Source: a virus. Taken from it: DNA of 27,730 nucleotides. Both the position numbers and the translations under genes were made by a program. The notes beneath the pieces are model-generated. The model had not been told where the DNA came from, made no database searches, and worked only from the letters and a program-made list of their open reading frames with translations. Below, one piece after another: positions 3,601-10,131 of this stretch (position 1 is its first letter; each line of letters opens with the position of its first letter). The stretch is from positions 1 to 27,730 of IMG/VR virus record IMGVR_UViG_3300032229_000074, one strand, 5' to 3'.

Positions 3601-4386
3601 GATGGCACATTCCGCGTAAAGGGCGCAGGAACTGCTGGCAGCACCGACGCTTTCCAGGTGGCGGGAACTGCACCAGCGTCTGCTATGACGCTGTTTGCAT
3701 CTGGTGGCTTTTCTGTTGGAAATACAACTGACCCCGGTGCAGGCGCAATCAGTGCAAGGTCATCAAGTAATCCTCACATATTTGATTCAACATCCGCTAC
3801 GGAGGTTATTGGAATAACAAAAAATGGAGGGAACGCGGCTTACTTGGCGACAGTAGGAAGTGCAGACTCTGGCCTGCAAATTAAAGACTCTGCTGGCGCT
3901 GTTAACCTTACAGTTGGAACTTCTGGCAAATCAGTTGCCTTGCAAGGTGGAACCGTATCAACAGGCACAGGTATCACCTTCCCCGCCACCCAATCCGCAT
4001 CAGCCAACGCCAACACGCTGGATGACTATGAGGAGGGGACTTGGACGCCGACGGATGCAAGCGGTGCAGGGCTTACTTTCACTGAAGCAGCCGGGATGTA
4101 CACGAAGGTTGGCAGACTTGTTGTCGCCACCTTCCGCGCTCGATACCCGTCCACATCGAATGGATCAACCGCTGAGATTGGTGGCTTGCCATTCAACTCA
4201 GCAATCGTAGGCAATCAACAAATGCAGGGCAGCGCGATTCGATTCTCGGATGTGGGCAGCGCATTTACGCTTGCAAACAACACCGGGACAACCACCGTGG
4301 TGCCGCTAAATTTCAGCGGCAGTGGTTACACGAATGCCAATTTCTCTGGCAAGTATGTGGATGCTGCAATCATCTACCAAACCTAA
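658..4386 (+). CDS. Long tail fibre protein with repeated cassettes
   Basis: 1242 residues rich in Thr, Gly, Ser, Ala and Asn, with beta-repeat character and no long helices, as in phage fibres. Recognisable pieces in order: TLTNKSISG repeats near residues 300-345; a YVDAVAEGL segment near 366; a module with LMVKNEVAQANNGIY near 429 ending in WQQFSGAGTYTAGTG near 499; YTVNAQGQLTAA near 543; and GTAYGGTGLSSF near 571. Three copies of the fibre motif NVGVGTASP / NVGIGTTSP follow, each preceded by an ERARISSDGTF-type stretch. Near residue 1123 lies DDYEEGTWTPT, a motif I know from the C-terminal domain of many tail fibres. The central part (about 2470-4000) is visibly AT-richer than its flanks, as expected for an exchanged receptor-binding part. 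Role: adsorption to the host surface. The receptor cannot be told. Confidence 0.85.
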   Translation: MSAQVTITQLPAAGAITGTESVPIVQNGVTVQTTTGAIAASPSQPYTYLTVTQTPQLANSRYFGATNGLTITDGGAQGVFNVTTTGALSSLVASGTGFQVKTSSTAITGRSIAVSGAGLSISNGSGVSGDPTITLAGQVLNLANLSANGLMTITTAGAISATQIAAVGNQTVVTNADGIAGNPTIGLADNPIIPGTGAIQIPAGSTGQRPSGVDGKIRFNSTDGAYEGYAVGAWRQFALTGGVLTVSGTANEITATGTANVVLSLPTALTFTGKTVTGGTFNMTAATVGADTVTTNTATQTLTNKSISGSSNTLTNIPNGALTNSSLTIGTTAISLGSSSLTLGGLTSVAVTQDPTTALQLATKQYVDAVAEGLHIHASCDAATPNTLAALTGGTVTYNNGTSGVGATLTLSSPLTVVDGYTLLNGNRLMVKNEVAQANNGIYTWATGGTVLTRATDFDTSAEIASGDYSFVTNGTLYASTGWVQTQPVTTVGTDAIIWQQFSGAGTYTAGTGLTLTGTQFSITNTAVTAGSYGSASSVPNYTVNAQGQLTAAASTAIAINGNQITSGVVGTAYGGTGLSSFTANGVVYASSTSALATGSALTFNGTETLALTASGGAAFNVGGSTGKIFLYADNSATTVGAVTNIPMRFNVNSVEQARLTADGLEIKQSQLIGYSSYAGIGTNGLAVAGNVGVGTASPAAKLHAVGDNVAFRGQASLQTSNANNFAQLTFYDRTTLGAQIFQGYQATAGVGDLTIQTVLTSSALVFGTNSTERARISSDGTFRVKGAGTAGSTDAVQLSGSAPASSLIFNSSGNVGVGTASPSAKLELYSSADANFGQKIYHGSAALATNRFPQLEFSQTPVAQSYENRVILRQQNSPSFGNYPCLALITNSASAGEVTRMFLDGFSGNVGIGTTSPNANLAIVVAAAAVDGTKGVRITNSGGGIVMLENGSNNDSYVGTLSTSDFCFRTNNTERGRFSSDGTFRVKGAGTAGSTDAFQVAGTAPASAMTLFASGGFSVGNTTDPGAGAISARSSSNPHIFDSTSATEVIGITKNGGNAAYLATVGSADSGLQIKDSAGAVNLTVGTSGKSVALQGGTVSTGTGITFPATQSASANANTLDDYEEGTWTPTDASGAGLTFTEAAGMYTKVGRLVVATFRARYPSTSNGSTAEIGGLPFNSAIVGNQQMQGSAIRFSDVGSAFTLANNTGTTTVVPLNFSGSGYTNANFSGKYVDAAIIYQT
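2725..3125 (+). repeat. Exact 29-bp direct repeat in the fibre gene
   Basis: The 29 bases at 2725-2753 recur identically at 3097-3125. They encode the GNVGVGTASP fibre motif. A third, diverged copy lies near 3381-3411 (GNVGIGTTSP). Identity at DNA level, including synonymous positions, points to recent duplication or to homologous exchange between cassettes. Confidence 0.9.
2989..3657 (+). repeat. 63-bp near-identical repeat pair in the fibre gene
   Basis: Bases 2989-3051 and 3595-3657 differ at about 7 of 63 positions by hand alignment. Both encode SSDGTFRVKGAGTAGSTDA followed by a Gln- or Phe-Gln-containing end. Each copy follows an NSTERAR / NNTERGR stretch, marking two repeats of one fibre cassette. 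Confidence 0.85.
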
Positions 4387-4397
4387 GGAAAATCATC

Positions 4398-4658
4398 ATG
4401 TCAACCTTCACCGAAGTCACCTACATCTCCCAATTTGACATTCAGCCCAACGGTTGCATTGGCGTCCGCAAGACCACCGATGTCCTAAAGGACGGAGTTG
4501 TCATCTCCAGTACCTACTGGCGTTGCGTCCTTGTGCCCAACGACCCGCAGGCATCCACGGTGCTGGATGAGGCTTACTACCTCAACATCGCCACATACGC
4601 TTGGAGCCAACCGTCGCCCCAACCGTATGACCCTAACCCCCCAACCCCCGGAGTTTGA
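4398..4658 (+). CDS. Small conserved phage protein next to the tail fibre
   Basis: 86 residues, starting 11 bases after the fibre stop with AAGG upstream of ATG. The N-terminal part has a beta pattern with the phrases QFDIQPNGCIGVR and LKDGVVIS-x3-WRCVL, a layout I recall from small unnamed proteins downstream of phage fibres. The C-terminal 17 residues are Pro-rich (QPSPQPYDPNPPTPG) and likely disordered. There is no signal peptide or membrane segment. It could be a fibre accessory or assembly factor. That is a guess from position alone. Confidence 0.6.
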   Translation: MSTFTEVTYISQFDIQPNGCIGVRKTTDVLKDGVVISSTYWRCVLVPNDPQASTVLDEAYYLNIATYAWSQPSPQPYDPNPPTPGV

Positions 4659-4660
4659 AC

Positions 4661-4882
4661 ATGACTGAAATCACAACCCAACCCACCGCCGAAGAGATCG
4701 CACGCCACTACAGCGCCGCGATGGATTCGGTGAATCTGCTGAACGCCGGGAAGCCCGAAGGCATGGACGATGCCGAATGGGCCGACTGCGTGCGTCGGAA
4801 CAAGGAACACCTCCAGATCATGCTGGCCAAGGACTTCTGGACGACCGAAGATCTTGAGCCTCTGCGTCAGGCCGCAGCATAA
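4661..4882 (+). CDS. Small helical protein, possible fibre assembly factor
   Basis: 73 residues from ATG at 4661. A TTG at 4655 is in frame, but GGAG at 4650-4653 is correctly spaced for the ATG, so the ATG was chosen. The start lies two bases after the preceding stop. The sequence is mostly helical and acidic, with HYSAAMDSVNLLNAG, a WADCVRRNKEHLQIML helix and DFWTTEDLEPL. I recall this pattern from small unnamed proteins encoded beside phage tail fibres. No enzymatic motif is visible. A role as chaperone or regulator is unproven. Confidence 0.6.
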   Translation: MTEITTQPTAEEIARHYSAAMDSVNLLNAGKPEGMDDAEWADCVRRNKEHLQIMLAKDFWTTEDLEPLRQAAA

Positions 4883-4936
4883 TGATGGAAGGGCATACCG
4901 CTGGCCCTGACAGCGGCAACAATACGGAGAGTTTTT

Positions 4937-5077
4937 ATGGAAAAAATTGCACTTTCAACTGAGTTGGTCAACGGCATCTTGCAGTATCTTGGCAGTCAGC
5001 CATTCGTACAGGTGGCCCAACTCATAAATGCCATCCAGCAAGAGGCCAAGCCCCCTGCTGAACCTGCTATCGAATAA
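4937..5077 (+). CDS. 46-residue small phage protein
   Basis: ATG at 4937 is preceded by CGGAGAG with good spacing, and the frame ends at TAA 5075-5077. The protein begins MEKIALSTELVNGILQYLGS, followed by QPFVQVAQLINAIQQEAKPP. That is two short amphipathic helices with a QPF turn and an acidic/Pro tail. I recall very similar small proteins (helix, a short P[FY] turn, then a 'LI..I' helix) in many phages near fibre and lysis genes. It fills the gap between two recognised small genes, which supports it being real. Function unknown. Confidence 0.6.
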   Translation: MEKIALSTELVNGILQYLGSQPFVQVAQLINAIQQEAKPPAEPAIE

Positions 5078-5096
5078 TTTTTAACCGGAACCCAGC

Positions 5097-5318
5097 ATGG
5101 ACGCGCAGTTTATTTTCAATTCAATGGTTGGGATTGCTGCATTTCTTGGCGGCTGGGTTCTGAACAACATCACCAAGGCCATCGAACGTCTTGACAAGGA
5201 CGTTCGAGAGATGCCTCGCGCATACGTCAGCAAGGACGACTACCACCGAGACGTTGACGAGATCAAGGACATCTGCAAGCAGATTTTCAACAAGCTCGAC
5301 AACAAGGCTGATAAGTAA
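5097..5318 (+). CDS. Small membrane-anchored protein with coiled-coil tail
   Basis: 73 residues. A hydrophobic N-terminal segment at about residues 6-24 (FNSMVGIAAFLGGWVLNNI) is followed by a charged helical part with YVSKDDYHRDVDEIKDI and a Lys/Asp-rich end. One membrane helix plus a soluble heptad-like tail fits a lysis accessory protein (holin-like or antiholin-like). Lysis genes lie about 1 kb downstream. It has no holin family signature that I can name. RBS: CCGGAACC upstream of ATG. Confidence 0.6.
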   Translation: MDAQFIFNSMVGIAAFLGGWVLNNITKAIERLDKDVREMPRAYVSKDDYHRDVDEIKDICKQIFNKLDNKADK

Positions 5319-5327
5319 GGAAAAATC

Positions 5328-6395
5328 ATGGCAGCACCAAACTTCACCCCAATCCAGCTTTACAGCAGCGGCACTGCGGCTGCTGCGCCAAGTGCGGGCA
5401 ACCTTACAAATGGGGAGTTGGCCCTCAACTTTAATGATGGCAAGCTGTACTACAAGAATAGTTCCAGCGTGGTGACGTTGCTGGCGTCGGCTGCAGGCGC
5501 TTTGGGCAATGTGGTGGGGCCAGCCTCAGCGACGACAGATGGGAATTTGGCAGCGTTTGATGGCGTCACGGGTAAGTTGATCAAGCAGGCCGCAGCAGTC
5601 ACTGTGGCCCAGGGCGGAACTGGGCAGACCACTTTTACCGATGGACAGTTGCTGATTGGCAATACAACCGGCAACACCCTGACCAAAACTACCCTGACTG
5701 CGGGCGCAAACATCACCATCACCAATGGAAGCGGCTCAATAACGATTGCAGCCACAGGTAGCGGGGGCGTCACCAGCGTCACGGGAACTTCGCCAATTGT
5801 CTCCAGTGGCGGTGCAACGCCCGCAATCAGCCTCACCACCGTTCCCGTTAATTTAGGCGGCACAAATCTGACTTCCTACACCTCTGGTGGCGTTTTGTTT
5901 GCGTCTGGTACGGGAACGCTTGCAAACGGTTCGGGCTTGACCTTTTCCAGCGGAAACTTGGGCCTTGGGGTGGCCTCGCCTTTTTACAAGTTTGATGTGG
6001 AGACAACGTCTGGCGGAGTCACCCCGTATATTGCAAGTTTTACGAACACCAGCACATCAACTGCACAGGCCAACATAATACGCATTACGCAAAACGCATC
6101 TGGCGCTGCTGTTGGCCTTATAGGAACAGGTGGGTCAACTTTTTCTGATACAGCGTTTGCAAATAATTTTGCAATTGGAACGCAAGGCTCTAACGCACTT
6201 GTTTTTATTACCGGTGCAACTGAACGTGTCCGTATTGACACTTCTGGCAACCTGATCCAGAAAGTCAACACCACTGCTGCTACGCTGACAGTAAACGAAA
6301 CTCTGACCTTCAGCATCGTAAACAACTCCACCCTGCGCATTTCTGTTCGCGGCTCAGATGGAACCACGCGCACTGCAACTGTTGCACTGACTTAA
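5328..6395 (+). CDS. Second tail fibre / tail-spike-like protein
   Basis: 355 residues of fibre-like composition (Thr, Gly, Ser, Ala, Asn). The N-terminus has GNLTNGELALNFNDGKLYYK (residues 24-43), the 'GELA.N..DG.LY.K' signature common at the start of phage fibres. VAQGGTGQTTFTDGQLLIGN lies near 98-117, followed by a glycine-rich Ig-like stretch, the motif NLGLGVASPFYKFDV, and near the end TERVRIDTSGNL. The last two motifs are the same cassette type as in the 1242-residue fibre, so the two genes share building blocks. The start has AAGGAAAAATC before ATG and lies nine bases after the preceding stop. Probably a second adsorption or fibre-branch protein. Confidence 0.75.
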   Translation: MAAPNFTPIQLYSSGTAAAAPSAGNLTNGELALNFNDGKLYYKNSSSVVTLLASAAGALGNVVGPASATTDGNLAAFDGVTGKLIKQAAAVTVAQGGTGQTTFTDGQLLIGNTTGNTLTKTTLTAGANITITNGSGSITIAATGSGGVTSVTGTSPIVSSGGATPAISLTTVPVNLGGTNLTSYTSGGVLFASGTGTLANGSGLTFSSGNLGLGVASPFYKFDVETTSGGVTPYIASFTNTSTSTAQANIIRITQNASGAAVGLIGTGGSTFSDTAFANNFAIGTQGSNALVFITGATERVRIDTSGNLIQKVNTTAATLTVNETLTFSIVNNSTLRISVRGSDGTTRTATVALT

Positions 6396-6851
6396 ATGAT
6401 TGATCTGACCAAAGCTATTGGAGCCGTTGCTGCCAGCGTTGCTGCGCTGGGCGGCAGCTACACCTTGGCCGACAAGTTCGGCTGGTTTGACCGCGCCATC
6501 ATTGAGTGGTCGCCTGAGAACTTCAAGATCACGGCAGAACACGGCAAGCCCATCAATGTCACCGTTGCGCGGATCAAGAAGCGCGACGACTGCTCTGTTG
6601 AGAGTTTTACGCCCAGTATCCGAGACGCTGCGGGGATGATCCACGCAGCCACCACCACGGCAAGCAAGTTCAGCGGCCCAGCGGGGCCGGAGATTGACAC
6701 CTTCACCTACCAACTCACGATGGTGCAAAAAGAAAAAATTGCTGATGGCAAGGCTACTCTGCTTGCGACGATCAAGTACAAGTGCCCAGAGGGTGAGCGC
6801 GTTGTGCAGTACCCGCGTCACCCCAACTTAAGTTTTGACCTGAAGGGGTAA
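6396..6851 (+). CDS. Membrane-anchored phage protein, probable lysis-block member
   Basis: 151 residues, with the ATG directly abutting the fibre stop (TAA-ATG). One hydrophobic helix at about residues 6-24 (KAIGAVAASVAALGGSYTLA) is followed by a beta-rich, Ig-like soluble region with two cysteines (residues 68 and 139) that could form a disulfide if it is exported. This arrangement (TM anchor followed by 'ADKFGWF..I..WSPE.F') recurs, as I recall, just ahead of holin genes in phages of this type. It is followed three bases later by the holin. A lysis accessory role is inferred from position. No spanin signature (lipobox or coiled coil) is visible. Confidence 0.6.
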   Translation: MIDLTKAIGAVAASVAALGGSYTLADKFGWFDRAIIEWSPENFKITAEHGKPINVTVARIKKRDDCSVESFTPSIRDAAGMIHAATTTASKFSGPAGPEIDTFTYQLTMVQKEKIADGKATLLATIKYKCPEGERVVQYPRHPNLSFDLKG

Positions 6852-6854
6852 ACC

Positions 6855-7373
6855 ATGATTCCAATCGTTGCGTCACTGCTCGGTACGTTGGCCCAGAACG
6901 GTCTGGGCCTTTTGTCATCTGCCATTCAAGCCAAGGGCAAGCAGGTAGTCGAGGAAAAGCTCGGCATCAAGATCTCCGATGACCCCAGCCCGGAGGAGGT
7001 CAGCAAGCTGCGCCAACTCCAGTACGACCATGAGGAGCGGCTGCTTGAGTTGGGCATTGAAAAGGCCCGCCTGGAGCAGGAAGAACTCAAGGCTCTGCTG
7101 GCGGCTCAGGCCAACCAAGAAAACAACATCAGCGACCGTTGGAAGGCTGATATGTCCTCCGACTCGTGGCTGTCCAAGAACATCCGCCCAGGCACGCTAA
7201 TCTATCTTTTGACCGCTTATGTGGTCTTTGCCGGTCTGAGTGCTGCTGGCATTCAGGTGGAAGAGTCCTACGTCGCGCTGCTGGGCCAGTGGGGCATGCT
7301 GGTGATGACTGCCTACTTTGGTGGCCGCACCGTTGAGAAGGTCATGGAAATGCGCAAAGGGGGTGACAAATGA
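6855..7373 (+). CDS. Holin, 3-TM gene-transfer-agent type
   Basis: 172 residues. A hydrophobic N-terminus (MIPIVASLLGTLAQNGLGLL) is followed by a long charged coiled coil at about residues 45-90, then SDRWKADM-x4-SWLSKNIRPGTLIY and two closely spaced hydrophobic helices (about 114-131 and 139-155), and FGGRTVEKVMEMR at the end. This order matches the 3-TM holin family of gene transfer agents and phages (PF11351-like, from memory). It would permeabilise the inner membrane to let the endolysin out. The gene lies between a membrane-anchored protein and the endolysin. Its stop overlaps the endolysin start as ATGA. Confidence 0.75.
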   Translation: MIPIVASLLGTLAQNGLGLLSSAIQAKGKQVVEEKLGIKISDDPSPEEVSKLRQLQYDHEERLLELGIEKARLEQEELKALLAAQANQENNISDRWKADMSSDSWLSKNIRPGTLIYLLTAYVVFAGLSAAGIQVEESYVALLGQWGMLVMTAYFGGRTVEKVMEMRKGGDK

Positions 7374-7741
7374 GCCTGAGCCAAGAACAAGCGGCGTTTC
7401 TGTTGGACGCCTGCAAGCTGATCCAACATGCCACAGAAGAGGGCTGGATGGTCACTGGAGGCGAGTTGTCTCGCACCCCTGAGCAGCAGGCCATCTACGT
7501 CAAGACGGGCCGCTCCAAGACCTTAAATTCGATCCACCTCAAGCGCTGCGCCATTGACTTGAACTTCTTCAAGGACGGGAAGATAATCTGGGACAAGCAA
7601 ATGCTCGCTCCGCTGGGCGCATTCTGGGAGTCGTTGAATAAAGCTAACTCATGGGGTGGCAATGGGGTAACATTGGTGGACACACCACACTTCTCCAGAG
7701 GCCCAGATGGAAAACCAGAGTTTAGAAGAGTCTCACCTTGA
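7370..7741 (+). CDS. Endolysin, M15 zinc peptidase type
   Basis: 123 residues, the normal short length for single-domain M15 (L-Ala-D-Glu / D-Ala-D-Ala-peptidase-like) phage endolysins. Visible zinc-site residues are His56 and Asp63 in SIHLKRCAIDLNFF and His107 in DTPHFSR. TGGELSRTPEQQAIYV (29-44) and the NSWGGN turn (93-98) are also typical. It cleaves peptidoglycan cross-bridges or stem peptides after holin action. The C-terminus after DTPHF (RGPDGKPEFRRVSP) is longer than and unlike the short end I expect in this group. The final 35 bases overlap the HNH gene. A better-looking end (LVDCPHFER) lies downstream at 8211-8237 in the HNH frame, so this C-terminus may be secondary. Confidence 0.85.
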   Translation: MSLSQEQAAFLLDACKLIQHATEEGWMVTGGELSRTPEQQAIYVKTGRSKTLNSIHLKRCAIDLNFFKDGKIIWDKQMLAPLGAFWESLNKANSWGGNGVTLVDTPHFSRGPDGKPEFRRVSP

Positions 7742-8249
7742 GAAATTTCAAACCATGTACGATCATCTTCTTGTGACGCGATGCGGTCGGGTTTTTACAA
7801 AAGACCGCATCAAGCACAGCTTTTCAAGAGGCAGATCTTCATATTCATGCGAGATTAAAGGCCGGGAGTTGAAGACTCGTAAAGACAAAGATGGGTACTT
7901 GAGATTCAACACAACGGTTGAAAACAAGCACATCACCTTGCTTGTTCACCGGCTGATGGCTTTTACATTTCTGTCAAAGTGTTCAGACGGCCTTGTGGTC
8001 GATCACATTGACAGAGACAAGACCAACAACAAAATTGCGAACCTTCGATACGTCAGCCACGCAATAAATACCAGAAATTCTGACCGTCACAAAATGACGG
8101 AGGAAAAAAAGGAAATGGCAGTTAAGATGAAAAATATCGGAGCATCAACGGCGGCCATTGCGAGGGCGTTGAACGTGCAATACAGCTCAGTAACTTATTA
8201 CTTTAAGTCGCTGGTTGATTGCCCGCACTTTGAGCGCAACGTCGGATAA
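7707..8249 (+). CDS. HNH homing endonuclease with C-terminal helix-turn-helix
   Basis: 180 residues. The HNH core is VHRLMAFTF (His81), VVDHIDRDKTNN (Asp99, His100, Asn107) and NLRYVSHAINTRN (from Asn112), the classic order of phage HNH homing enzymes. Residues about 146-166 (ASTAAIARALNVQYSSVTYY) form a helix-turn-helix for target recognition. The ATG at 7707 lies inside the endolysin gene, with a weak GAGG before it. Met17 has no better site. The DNA is AT-richer than its neighbours, fitting recent arrival. After the HTH the frame runs into KSLVDCPHFERN, which resembles an M15 endolysin C-terminus and not HNH sequence, so the last 13 or so residues are probably captured endolysin coding sequence. 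Confidence 0.85.
   Translation: MENQSLEESHLEKFQTMYDHLLVTRCGRVFTKDRIKHSFSRGRSSYSCEIKGRELKTRKDKDGYLRFNTTVENKHITLLVHRLMAFTFLSKCSDGLVVDHIDRDKTNNKIANLRYVSHAINTRNSDRHKMTEEKKEMAVKMKNIGASTAAIARALNVQYSSVTYYFKSLVDCPHFERNVG
8202..8249 (+). pseudogene. Probable displaced 3' end of the endolysin gene
   Basis: In the HNH frame these 15 codons read FKSLVDCPHFERNVG then stop. This parallels the endolysin's own VTLVDTPHFSR (7667-7699) residue by residue around the second zinc His, and ends PHFER as M15 endolysins commonly do. DNA identity between the two is low outside conserved codons, so it is not a fresh duplication. The natural stop is 11 bases before the next gene, with normal late-gene spacing. Best read as the original 3' end left behind when the HNH gene inserted. 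Confidence 0.6.
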
Positions 8250-8260
8250 CGGAGAACAAC

Positions 8261-8896
8261 ATGACAGTCGCCGCCGTAATGACGTATGACTCGCTGGTCG
8301 ACGACATCCAGACTTATTTGGAGCGTACCGACCAGCAGACTCTGGACAAAATCCCCCAGTTCATCATGCTGGCGGAACAGATCATTGCGTCTGAGATCAA
8401 ATTTCTCGGCAACTTGGTGGTGGTCACGAGCAACATGGTTCAGGCCGCAAACGTCATTGCAAAGCCTGCAAGATGGCGCAAGACGGTCTCAATGAACGTG
8501 ACAGTGGCAGGCAAGCGCCAGCCCGTCTTGCTGCGCACCTACGAGTACATCCGGGAATATTGGCCAGACCCTGCGTCAACGGATGTGCCGAAGTTCTTTT
8601 GCGACTACGATTACGAGCACTGGCTGGTTGGTCCCACGCCGACTTTGGCTTATGCCTACGAGGTGCTGTACTACGAGCGCGTGCAGCCGCTTGATTCAAG
8701 CAACCAGTCGAATTGGTTCACGCAGTACGCCCCCCAGGCGCTGCTTTATGGCTCCCTGTTGCAGGCCATGCCGTTTCTCAAGAACGACGAGCGCATGCCA
8801 ATGTGGCAGGGTAACTATGACCGCATCATCCAAGTCCTGAAGGAAGAAAACCTCACCAGGGTGGCTGACCGTCAGGCAATTGCAAGGGATTCATAA
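8261..8896 (+). CDS. Phage adaptor protein (head-tail connector type)
   Basis: 211 residues with GGAG before ATG. The N-terminus YDSLVDDIQTYLERTD, then IPQFIMLAEQIIASEIKFLG, and the later YEVLYYERVQPL-x8-WFTQYAPQALLYGSLLQA match, from memory, the phage SU10-like adaptor family found between portal and nozzle in podovirus tails. It is an all-helical bundle plus a beta region. The C-terminal 'yy.r..pL....n W....p..Ll.a.l..a' layout parallels that of the fragment at the start of the window, so two adaptor-like proteins may be encoded. It overlaps the next start by one base (TAATG). Confidence 0.7.
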   Translation: MTVAAVMTYDSLVDDIQTYLERTDQQTLDKIPQFIMLAEQIIASEIKFLGNLVVVTSNMVQAANVIAKPARWRKTVSMNVTVAGKRQPVLLRTYEYIREYWPDPASTDVPKFFCDYDYEHWLVGPTPTLAYAYEVLYYERVQPLDSSNQSNWFTQYAPQALLYGSLLQAMPFLKNDERMPMWQGNYDRIIQVLKEENLTRVADRQAIARDS

Positions 8897-10131
8897 TGAG
8901 CTTTACCTCGCCCTTCAGCGGAAATGTGATCCAGCCGACGGACGTTTCGTTCCGTGCGATCACCCTGAGCGTCACCACAACCTTGTCATGGCCGATCAAC
9001 GGCAGCGACACGGACAATGCTGCCGCAAGGATCATGAACGTCACGGCCACTGCGGGCAGCCTGCTGCTTCAGATGCCCCCGGCAAATCAGGCATCTGTTG
9101 GCCAGGATGCGCTGATTCGGAACGTGGGGGCGACCACCTTCACGGTGGCTGACTATGTTGGCAACACCATAGTCTCTGTTGCGTCCGGCGAGGCCAAGTA
9201 CATCTACATCACCACCAACGCCAACACGGCTGGCACCTGGGGAATCATCTCCTTTGGTGTTGGAAGCTCAAGCGCTGATGCGGCAACCCTTGCCGGTTTT
9301 GGCTTAAAAGCTGTCACAACGACCCTGAACCAATCCCACACCGTTCAGACCTTTTCAAACACTTACACGGCCATCGCTTCTGACCGGGCTGCGTCTTACG
9401 TTTGGACGGGCGGATCTGGATCTCTCGGAATTACTTCAGCCTCCACTTTGGGCAACGACTGGTTCTTCATGATCCGCAACGGCGGGACTGGAACTCTTAC
9501 GATAACGCCTGCCTCTGGCTTGATCAACGGACTGGCCTCAATTGCCCTTCAGCCTGGGGACTCTGCAATCATTGTTTGTTCTGGAGCAGCCTTTTTTACG
9601 GTTGGCCTTGGCCGCAACACGGAGTTCAACTTTACTCAGTTGACAAAAGCGGTGGTCTCTGGCTCCTACACGCTTACATCGGCTGAAGCGGCAAACGTGG
9701 TGCAGAAGTACACCGGAACACTCACAGCAAACGTCACGGTAACCCTTCCCCAGACGGTTCAGGTGTACTACATCACAAACCAGACAAATGGAGGCATAGG
9801 ACCTTACTCAATTACGTTTACCACAGGTTCTGGCGGCGGTACTGCGAGTGTGCCCGCAGGCCAGCAGGTGATCTTGCTGTGCGACTCGGTCAACTTGCTT
9901 AACGCCACCACGATTGCAGCGGGCGCGGCAAACATTTCTCTTGTTGATGGTACGGCTGGTGCGCCATCTTTAAACTTTGGGTCAGAGACAAATACTGGTA
10001 TTTTCCGACCCGGTTCGGGTGAGTTTGGGCTTGCTGTTCTGGGTATTGAAATGCTTGCACTCAGTGCCACTGGGGTGACCGTGCCGGGGACTGGTATTTT
10101 CACTGGCGGCGTTTCTGGCGGTACGTTCTAA
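8896..10131 (+). CDS. Beta-rich tail protein, fibre- or nozzle-associated
   Basis: 411 residues, Thr/Gly/Ala rich, with no long helices. It opens MSFTSPFSGNVIQPTDVSFR, then ITLSVTTTLSWPING, then LLLQMPPANQASVGQDALIRNVG. I recall this string from short tail proteins encoded beside nozzle genes in aquatic phages. Two later blocks (about 155-235 and 250-335) repeat a beta-sandwich theme ending in a Gly-rich turn. The C-terminal part, with LNFGSETNTGIFRPGSGEFG, resembles fibre repeats. Position between adaptor and nozzle genes supports a structural tail role such as a short fibre or tail-hub component. The exact place in the particle is unknown. Confidence 0.65.
   Translation: MSFTSPFSGNVIQPTDVSFRAITLSVTTTLSWPINGSDTDNAAARIMNVTATAGSLLLQMPPANQASVGQDALIRNVGATTFTVADYVGNTIVSVASGEAKYIYITTNANTAGTWGIISFGVGSSSADAATLAGFGLKAVTTTLNQSHTVQTFSNTYTAIASDRAASYVWTGGSGSLGITSASTLGNDWFFMIRNGGTGTLTITPASGLINGLASIALQPGDSAIIVCSGAAFFTVGLGRNTEFNFTQLTKAVVSGSYTLTSAEAANVVQKYTGTLTANVTVTLPQTVQVYYITNQTNGGIGPYSITFTTGSGGGTASVPAGQQVILLCDSVNLLNATTIAAGAANISLVDGTAGAPSLNFGSETNTGIFRPGSGEFGLAVLGIEMLALSATGVTVPGTGIFTGGVSGGTF

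Follow-up and report, generated by a model that had tools for sequence, protein, structure and literature searches.

Homing genes usually spare their targets by residing in introns, in inteins or at intergenic sites. A third way, in which the mobile gene carries the missing end of its target, is known from fungal mitochondria. Mobile ORFs (mORFs) have been described there in atp6 of Allomyces macrogynus and, as four hybrid genes, in atp6, atp9, cox2 and nad3 of Glomus (PMC3630166; also PMC4019555). In these cases an endonuclease ORF lies near the 3' end of the host gene without an intron, a foreign C-terminus is fused in frame to that gene, and the native C-terminus, closer to that of the sister species than the inserted one, is kept downstream. 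Ophiostoma rps3 and Phlebia cox2 and atp6 (PMC4019555) likewise contain an inserted endonuclease and have part of the C-terminal coding sequence in two copies. In phages, free-standing HNH endonucleases such as the T4 mob genes and the I-HmuI-like enzymes (PMC2988022, PMC12724721) lie beside or overlap essential genes and are absent from relatives; for T4 mobA and mobC, the overlap with the gene upstream amounts to 23-24 bases (PMC2988022). However, these genes sit between genes or in introns, and none described in the relevant sections of those two papers carries a replacement coding end. At nrdA/mobE of Aeromonas phage Aeh1 and at T4 gene 60/mobA (PMC2988022), an endonuclease is inserted without an intron into an essential phage gene, and the two resulting polypeptides reassemble.

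Here we describe the third arrangement in phages. The window, a stretch of 27,730 nucleotides of viral DNA, contains between position 7637 and about 8201 what is likely (we put the probability at roughly 0.83) a mobile, intron-less homing element composed of a foreign endolysin 3' end and an I-HmuI-like HNH gene; its anatomy is shown by sequence, and its movement and cleavage are inferred. At the sequence level the locus meets the tests set by the Allomyces atp6 type of element: an intron-less insertion, an in-frame foreign C-terminus, and a native end downstream that matches element-free relatives. It differs from mORFs in lying in phage rather than mitochondrial DNA, in using an HNH rather than a LAGLIDADG or GIY-YIG nuclease, in keeping the native end in frame with the endonuclease, and in showing many independent insertions and loss scars at one site. 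The Ophiostoma and Phlebia cases, too, are mitochondrial and involve other nuclease families. With the free-standing phage HNH genes it shares an HNH_3 nuclease, a position overlapping an essential gene and absence from relatives; unlike in Aeh1 nrdA/mobE and T4 gene 60/mobA, the carried C-terminus completes the first piece. We found no phage precedent for a carried C-terminus in the open-access literature searched, most subscription papers being outside its scope.

In PHROG terms the locus runs holin, endolysin, HNH, virion structural protein. The endolysin ORF (7370-7741; all features given here are on the plus strand) encodes an L-Ala-D-Glu peptidase of the M15 family (Pfam Peptidase_M15_4, here M15_4; PHROG endolysin; matches to 8q2g, 5opz and 2vo9). 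Codons 1-89 (7370..7636), the body, are the recipient's own sequence; codons 90-123 and the stop (7637..7741) are a foreign replacement C-terminus, the patch, with the tail NKANSWGGNGVTLVDTPHFSRGPDGKPEFRRVSP. The ORF ends SWGGNGVTLVDTPHFSRGPDGKPEFRRVSP, and its terminal M15 zinc-site segment begins GVTLVDTPHFSR. A Shine-Dalgarno-like AGAGG (7697..7701) lies within these endolysin codons, 5 bases upstream of the HNH ATG; HNH-bearing relatives have AGAGG, AGGGG or AGGA at this position. The HNH gene (7707..8249) overlaps the end of the endolysin by 35 bases in another frame. Because its ribosome-binding site and start lie inside the patch, the patch doubles as endolysin end and HNH translation start. 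The gene encodes an HNH_3 domain (about 7941-8075; Pfam HNH_3, 1.3e-11; PHROG HNH) and a helix-turn-helix (about 8088-8204) and ends YYFKSLVDCPHFERNVG. Its last codons (8202..8249), which read (F)KSLVDCPHFERNVG and a stop, are the displaced native endolysin C-terminus. The stop falls 11 bases ahead of the ATG of the next gene, a virion structural protein (8261..8896; PHROG 2941).

To define the uninterrupted site we compared the window with endolysin genes from viral contigs. An endolysin search yielded HNH-free genes with the native tail (type A) and genes with the window's tail (type B); a third group, type C, is also HNH-free. The locus with the window's endolysin and HNH gene unchanged is L001. 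In the HNH-free relatives the WGGN codons run directly into (F)KSLVDCPHFERNVG, giving the native tail FKSLVDCPHFERNVG; type A endolysins thus end in NRWGGNFKSLVDCPHFERNVG, with small variations, and the window's nearest relatives have the same next gene behind it (the gene at 8261..8896 is the one that comes after the intact endolysin of L016-L018). Across both flanks the nearest type A locus is L018, which shares a contig with L137; its identity to L001 is 94.4% over 900 bases to the left and 94.9% over 900 bases to the right. Base by base, the window matches L018 up to GAGTCnTTG at codon 89, breaks, and matches again from ACTTTAAGTCGCTGGTTGA (about 8200) past the stop. The 94% DNA identity of the endolysin body to L018 thus holds until 7636, and right-hand homology to L018/L137 resumes at ACTTTAAGTC. 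About 26 native bases (codons 90-98) have been replaced by about 560 bases, with the right junction at the F99/K100 boundary.

The leftover of 14-15 residues is letter for letter the native endolysin C-terminus of many HNH-free relatives; indeed, the HNH query itself matched the same 15 residues at the ends of HNH-free endolysins with 100% identity. The flank match to L018 and this identical protein end lead us to conclude that the KSLVDCPHFERNVG codons closing the HNH ORF are the displaced native end of the endolysin. Leftovers at other filled loci are similar to the native ends found in their respective relatives, as with the unusual ending AACGTATGA common to L006 and L064, and the two-copy layout was seen again in other contigs having different downstream genes. 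Since the leftover is identical in HNH-free relatives and the layout recurs, the arrangement is not due to chance. Every sequence used here is a metagenomic assembly, which leaves room for an artefact or a chimeric contig joining two phages. This is all but excluded: contigs that come from separate samples, and whose flanks belong to different phages, have the same junction, and the tail and the HNH gene show graded divergence.

An earlier, sequence-only reading of the window had proposed much of this, and most of it held. Its two copies of the M15 zinc-site segment, at the ends of the endolysin and the HNH ORF, were correctly placed, and its prediction that the C-termini of HNH-free relatives would match 8202-8249 directly after WGGN was met. 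The proposed insertion of an HNH gene at the endolysin 3' end with a replacement C-terminus is supported by the HNH-free relatives, by purifying selection and by the M15 profile. It had, however, called the window's endolysin end, RGPDGKPEFRRVSP, an odd tail, and this failed, that end closely resembling RGDGKPEWRRVT, which is native to another endolysin clade. Its further claim that the insertion recodes the end of the gene needs correction: the new end is a foreign homologous C-terminus, and the old one is displaced onto the HNH ORF. Finally, it had held that HNH-free relatives with a RGPDGKPEFRRVSP tail would refute the insertion. Such genes formally exist, but they are the type C clade or type B loci that lack the HNH gene (3 of 5 scarred, as described below), and they support insertion.

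The other clade was found by searching with the type B tail, which recovered the HNH-free type C genes (L176-L236), ending in PLNSWGGNGVKLVDTPHFSRGDGKPEWRRVT. Type C endolysins form one clade with a complete native C-terminus, NSWGGNGVKLVDTPHFSRGDGKPEWRRVT. Over codons 1-90, similarity between types A and B is about equal to that within groups; over codons 91-100, A-B identity drops to 48%, against 91% within B. The patch has about 50% DNA identity to type A tails, whereas type B loci agree among themselves at 91% (codons 91-100) and 83% (codons 101-110). The left boundary is constant in all type B loci open to comparison; the L011 row was out of register, a different ATG having been chosen, and was disregarded. 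These sequence comparisons show that the patch is foreign, a homologous C-terminus of another endolysin lineage and not a recoded old end, and that it travelled with the HNH gene. Type C is likely the source lineage. The entire type C clade lacks an aromatic residue after WGGN, a residue that is present in type A genes.

The HNH protein gave a profile match (E 6.8e-16) to the HNH homing endonuclease in PDB 1u3e, which we take to be I-HmuI. Its D99, H100 and N121 align with the catalytic D74, H75 and N96 of 1u3e (residues named in PMC12724721) and are invariant in 8 relatives. The gene is under purifying selection (pN/pS 0.26), and its GC content is 0.44, against 0.55-0.57 in the flanks. The family occurs in 14 contigs of the viral collection, every one with a type B endolysin; relatives in named phages and bacterial genomes are distant. 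The structure model of the protein was poor (pLDDT 52.6), and no weight is placed on it. Two loci, L010 and L014, have the HNH gene without the leftover, and their HNH proteins end YYFSKIQSAKM and YYFSKI, respectively, which fits the view that the leftover did not belong to the original HNH protein. HNH proteins that naturally end VDCPHFER, the other refutation that had been proposed, were not seen among those compared: L010 and L014 end otherwise, as do the distant HNH proteins in phages and genomes.

Such HNH genes are often borne by introns (I-HmuI; the terminase of Bacillus phage Silence), and the insertion lies within a conserved catalytic motif, as is usual for introns. If the insert were an intein, or a spliced intron of group I or II whose core has degenerated, the mature endolysin would keep its native end. 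We nevertheless consider this very unlikely. A search of 6500-9500 against Rfam gave no group I or II intron family, even at E 5, and the alternative of another structured RNA likewise found no Rfam support. Only 43 bases separate the WGGN codons from the HNH ATG, confirming the earlier estimate of about 40 and its conclusion that no group I intron fits, and there are none after the HNH coding region. Moreover, the upstream frame holds a complete, selected C-terminus that is native elsewhere, so the host protein is not restored only by splicing. An intein would need to be in frame with both flanks, but the endolysin stops at 7741 and the HNH gene is in another frame.

Selection on the patch is purifying (pN/pS 0.15-0.20), near that on the body (0.14), and the zinc-site segment required of an M15 L-Ala-D-Glu peptidase is present at the C-terminus. 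The M15_4 score of 17.7 bits for the body alone rises to 26.8 with the type B tail and to 33.8 with the type A tail. The carried tail thus completes the M15 profile, but activity of the chimeric endolysin is unproven and is inferred from sequence alone; no aromatic residue follows WGGN in the foreign tail, whose score is below that of the native one. The structure model of the endolysin was of moderate quality (pLDDT 75.7), with low confidence in loop 99-103, and its best PDB matches were M15 peptidases, with weak E-values. As a separate observation, pS is only 0.42 in the patch (window 7637-7706 and the same segment of L001-L015), against 0.69 for the HNH gene and 0.71 for the body at these loci; possible causes are the short length of the patch, constraint from the ribosome-binding site, or a DNA site bound by the nuclease.

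The element occupies a single site in the type A endolysin gene. In the mechanism that we infer, the HNH protein would cut or nick the uninterrupted allele of a co-infecting phage within the codons of the conserved M15 zinc motif, with the cut expected near GGCAACTTTAAGTC of L018-type DNA. Repair would use the element-bearing genome as template, with the endolysin body as left homology arm and, as right arm, the displaced native end together with the next gene. Reading of the recipient's endolysin would then run across the left junction into the carried C-terminus and the enzyme would stay functional, in which case splicing would not be needed, and the native end would remain, fused in frame to the end of the HNH protein. 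That the nuclease cleaves, that the filled allele resists it, and that the hybrid gene is transcribed with its inserted end are all inferred.

Repeated spread of the tail is shown by the sequences. A maximum-likelihood tree was built from the endolysin body alone (143 genes, 255 columns). Type C forms a single clade in it, but the 14 genes of type B fall in scattered positions among the 89 of type A. The A/B state changes 10 times, gains and losses counted together, at least 9 of the changes being forced by well-supported branches. A single origin of the foreign tail followed by vertical descent was rejected (one type B clade on the body tree, p-AU 0.0006). Between L001 and L002 the divergence is 22% for the body, 3% for the patch and 12% for the HNH gene; for the pair L006 and L009 it is 20%, 3% and 12%, respectively. 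The accompanying rank correlations rest on non-independent pairs and are descriptive only. Presence/absence polymorphism at one site together with horizontal spread, as expected of an HNH homing endonuclease, is therefore met.

The HNH gene is absent from 5 of the 14 distinct type B endolysin sequences, and 3 of these 5 bear a deletion-like scar. In L004, L012 and L015 a short, cut-down native remnant directly follows the type B tail, and at the junctions, read by eye, a few bases (AGTC or TTGA) are common to the two sides. Because the body of L004 groups with those of HNH-bearing L002 and L007, deletion is the natural reading, but an incomplete homing event would look alike. L008 and L013 also have the type B tail and no HNH gene, and no recognizable leftover follows their endolysin stop. 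At L012 (3300-3390) the patch has AGAGT in place of AGAGG, as though the motif had lost its use.

The main rival is plain homologous recombination, in which the HNH gene landed once at a type C-like endolysin end and the block of tail and HNH gene was moved among type A phages by general recombination only, with the nuclease as passenger. Exchange of this block between co-infecting phages would not require HNH activity, free recombination is usual among phage lysis genes, type B loci differ downstream in a way that fits general mosaicism, and the HNH gene is missing from the 5 type B sequences noted above. Against it stand the same two junctions wherever they are readable, intact catalytic residues under purifying selection, the many separate transfers on the body tree, and the scars, which look like losses rather than separate transfers of the tail alone. 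We judge this rival unlikely, but it is not excluded.

The homing reading can be taken one step further. On balance we lean, without great confidence, toward a "home and rescue" drive in which the nuclease is aimed at the catalytic motif of a lysis gene that the phage cannot do without, brings a divergent, cut-resistant 3' end by which the destroyed gene is restored, and spreads repeatedly among related phages without intron or intein, the resistant foreign end persisting after nuclease loss. Man-made gene drives with a recoded rescue segment are a parallel. By this route, selfish genes can exchange the catalytic end of an endolysin for another. Since empty and numerous filled sites are available together with loss scars and a likely source of the tail, the life cycle of the element is testable.

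When the surroundings of 19 distant HNH genes were searched, on a small scale, for the duplicated-end layout, no convincing case emerged. In Pectobacterium phage phiTE (L259, 1665-4059) an HNH gene lies between two ORFs annotated as nicotinamide phosphoribosyl transferase, apparently one split gene, and a duplicated C-terminus was not found there. Duplicated-end matches in L244 and L245 were rejected, as they apparently reflect two neighboring HNH-like genes and not a host-gene end: at about 4250-5441 in both, adjacent ORFs have similar C-terminal 60 residues and appear to be tandem HNH-like genes of Peptostreptococcaceae genomes.
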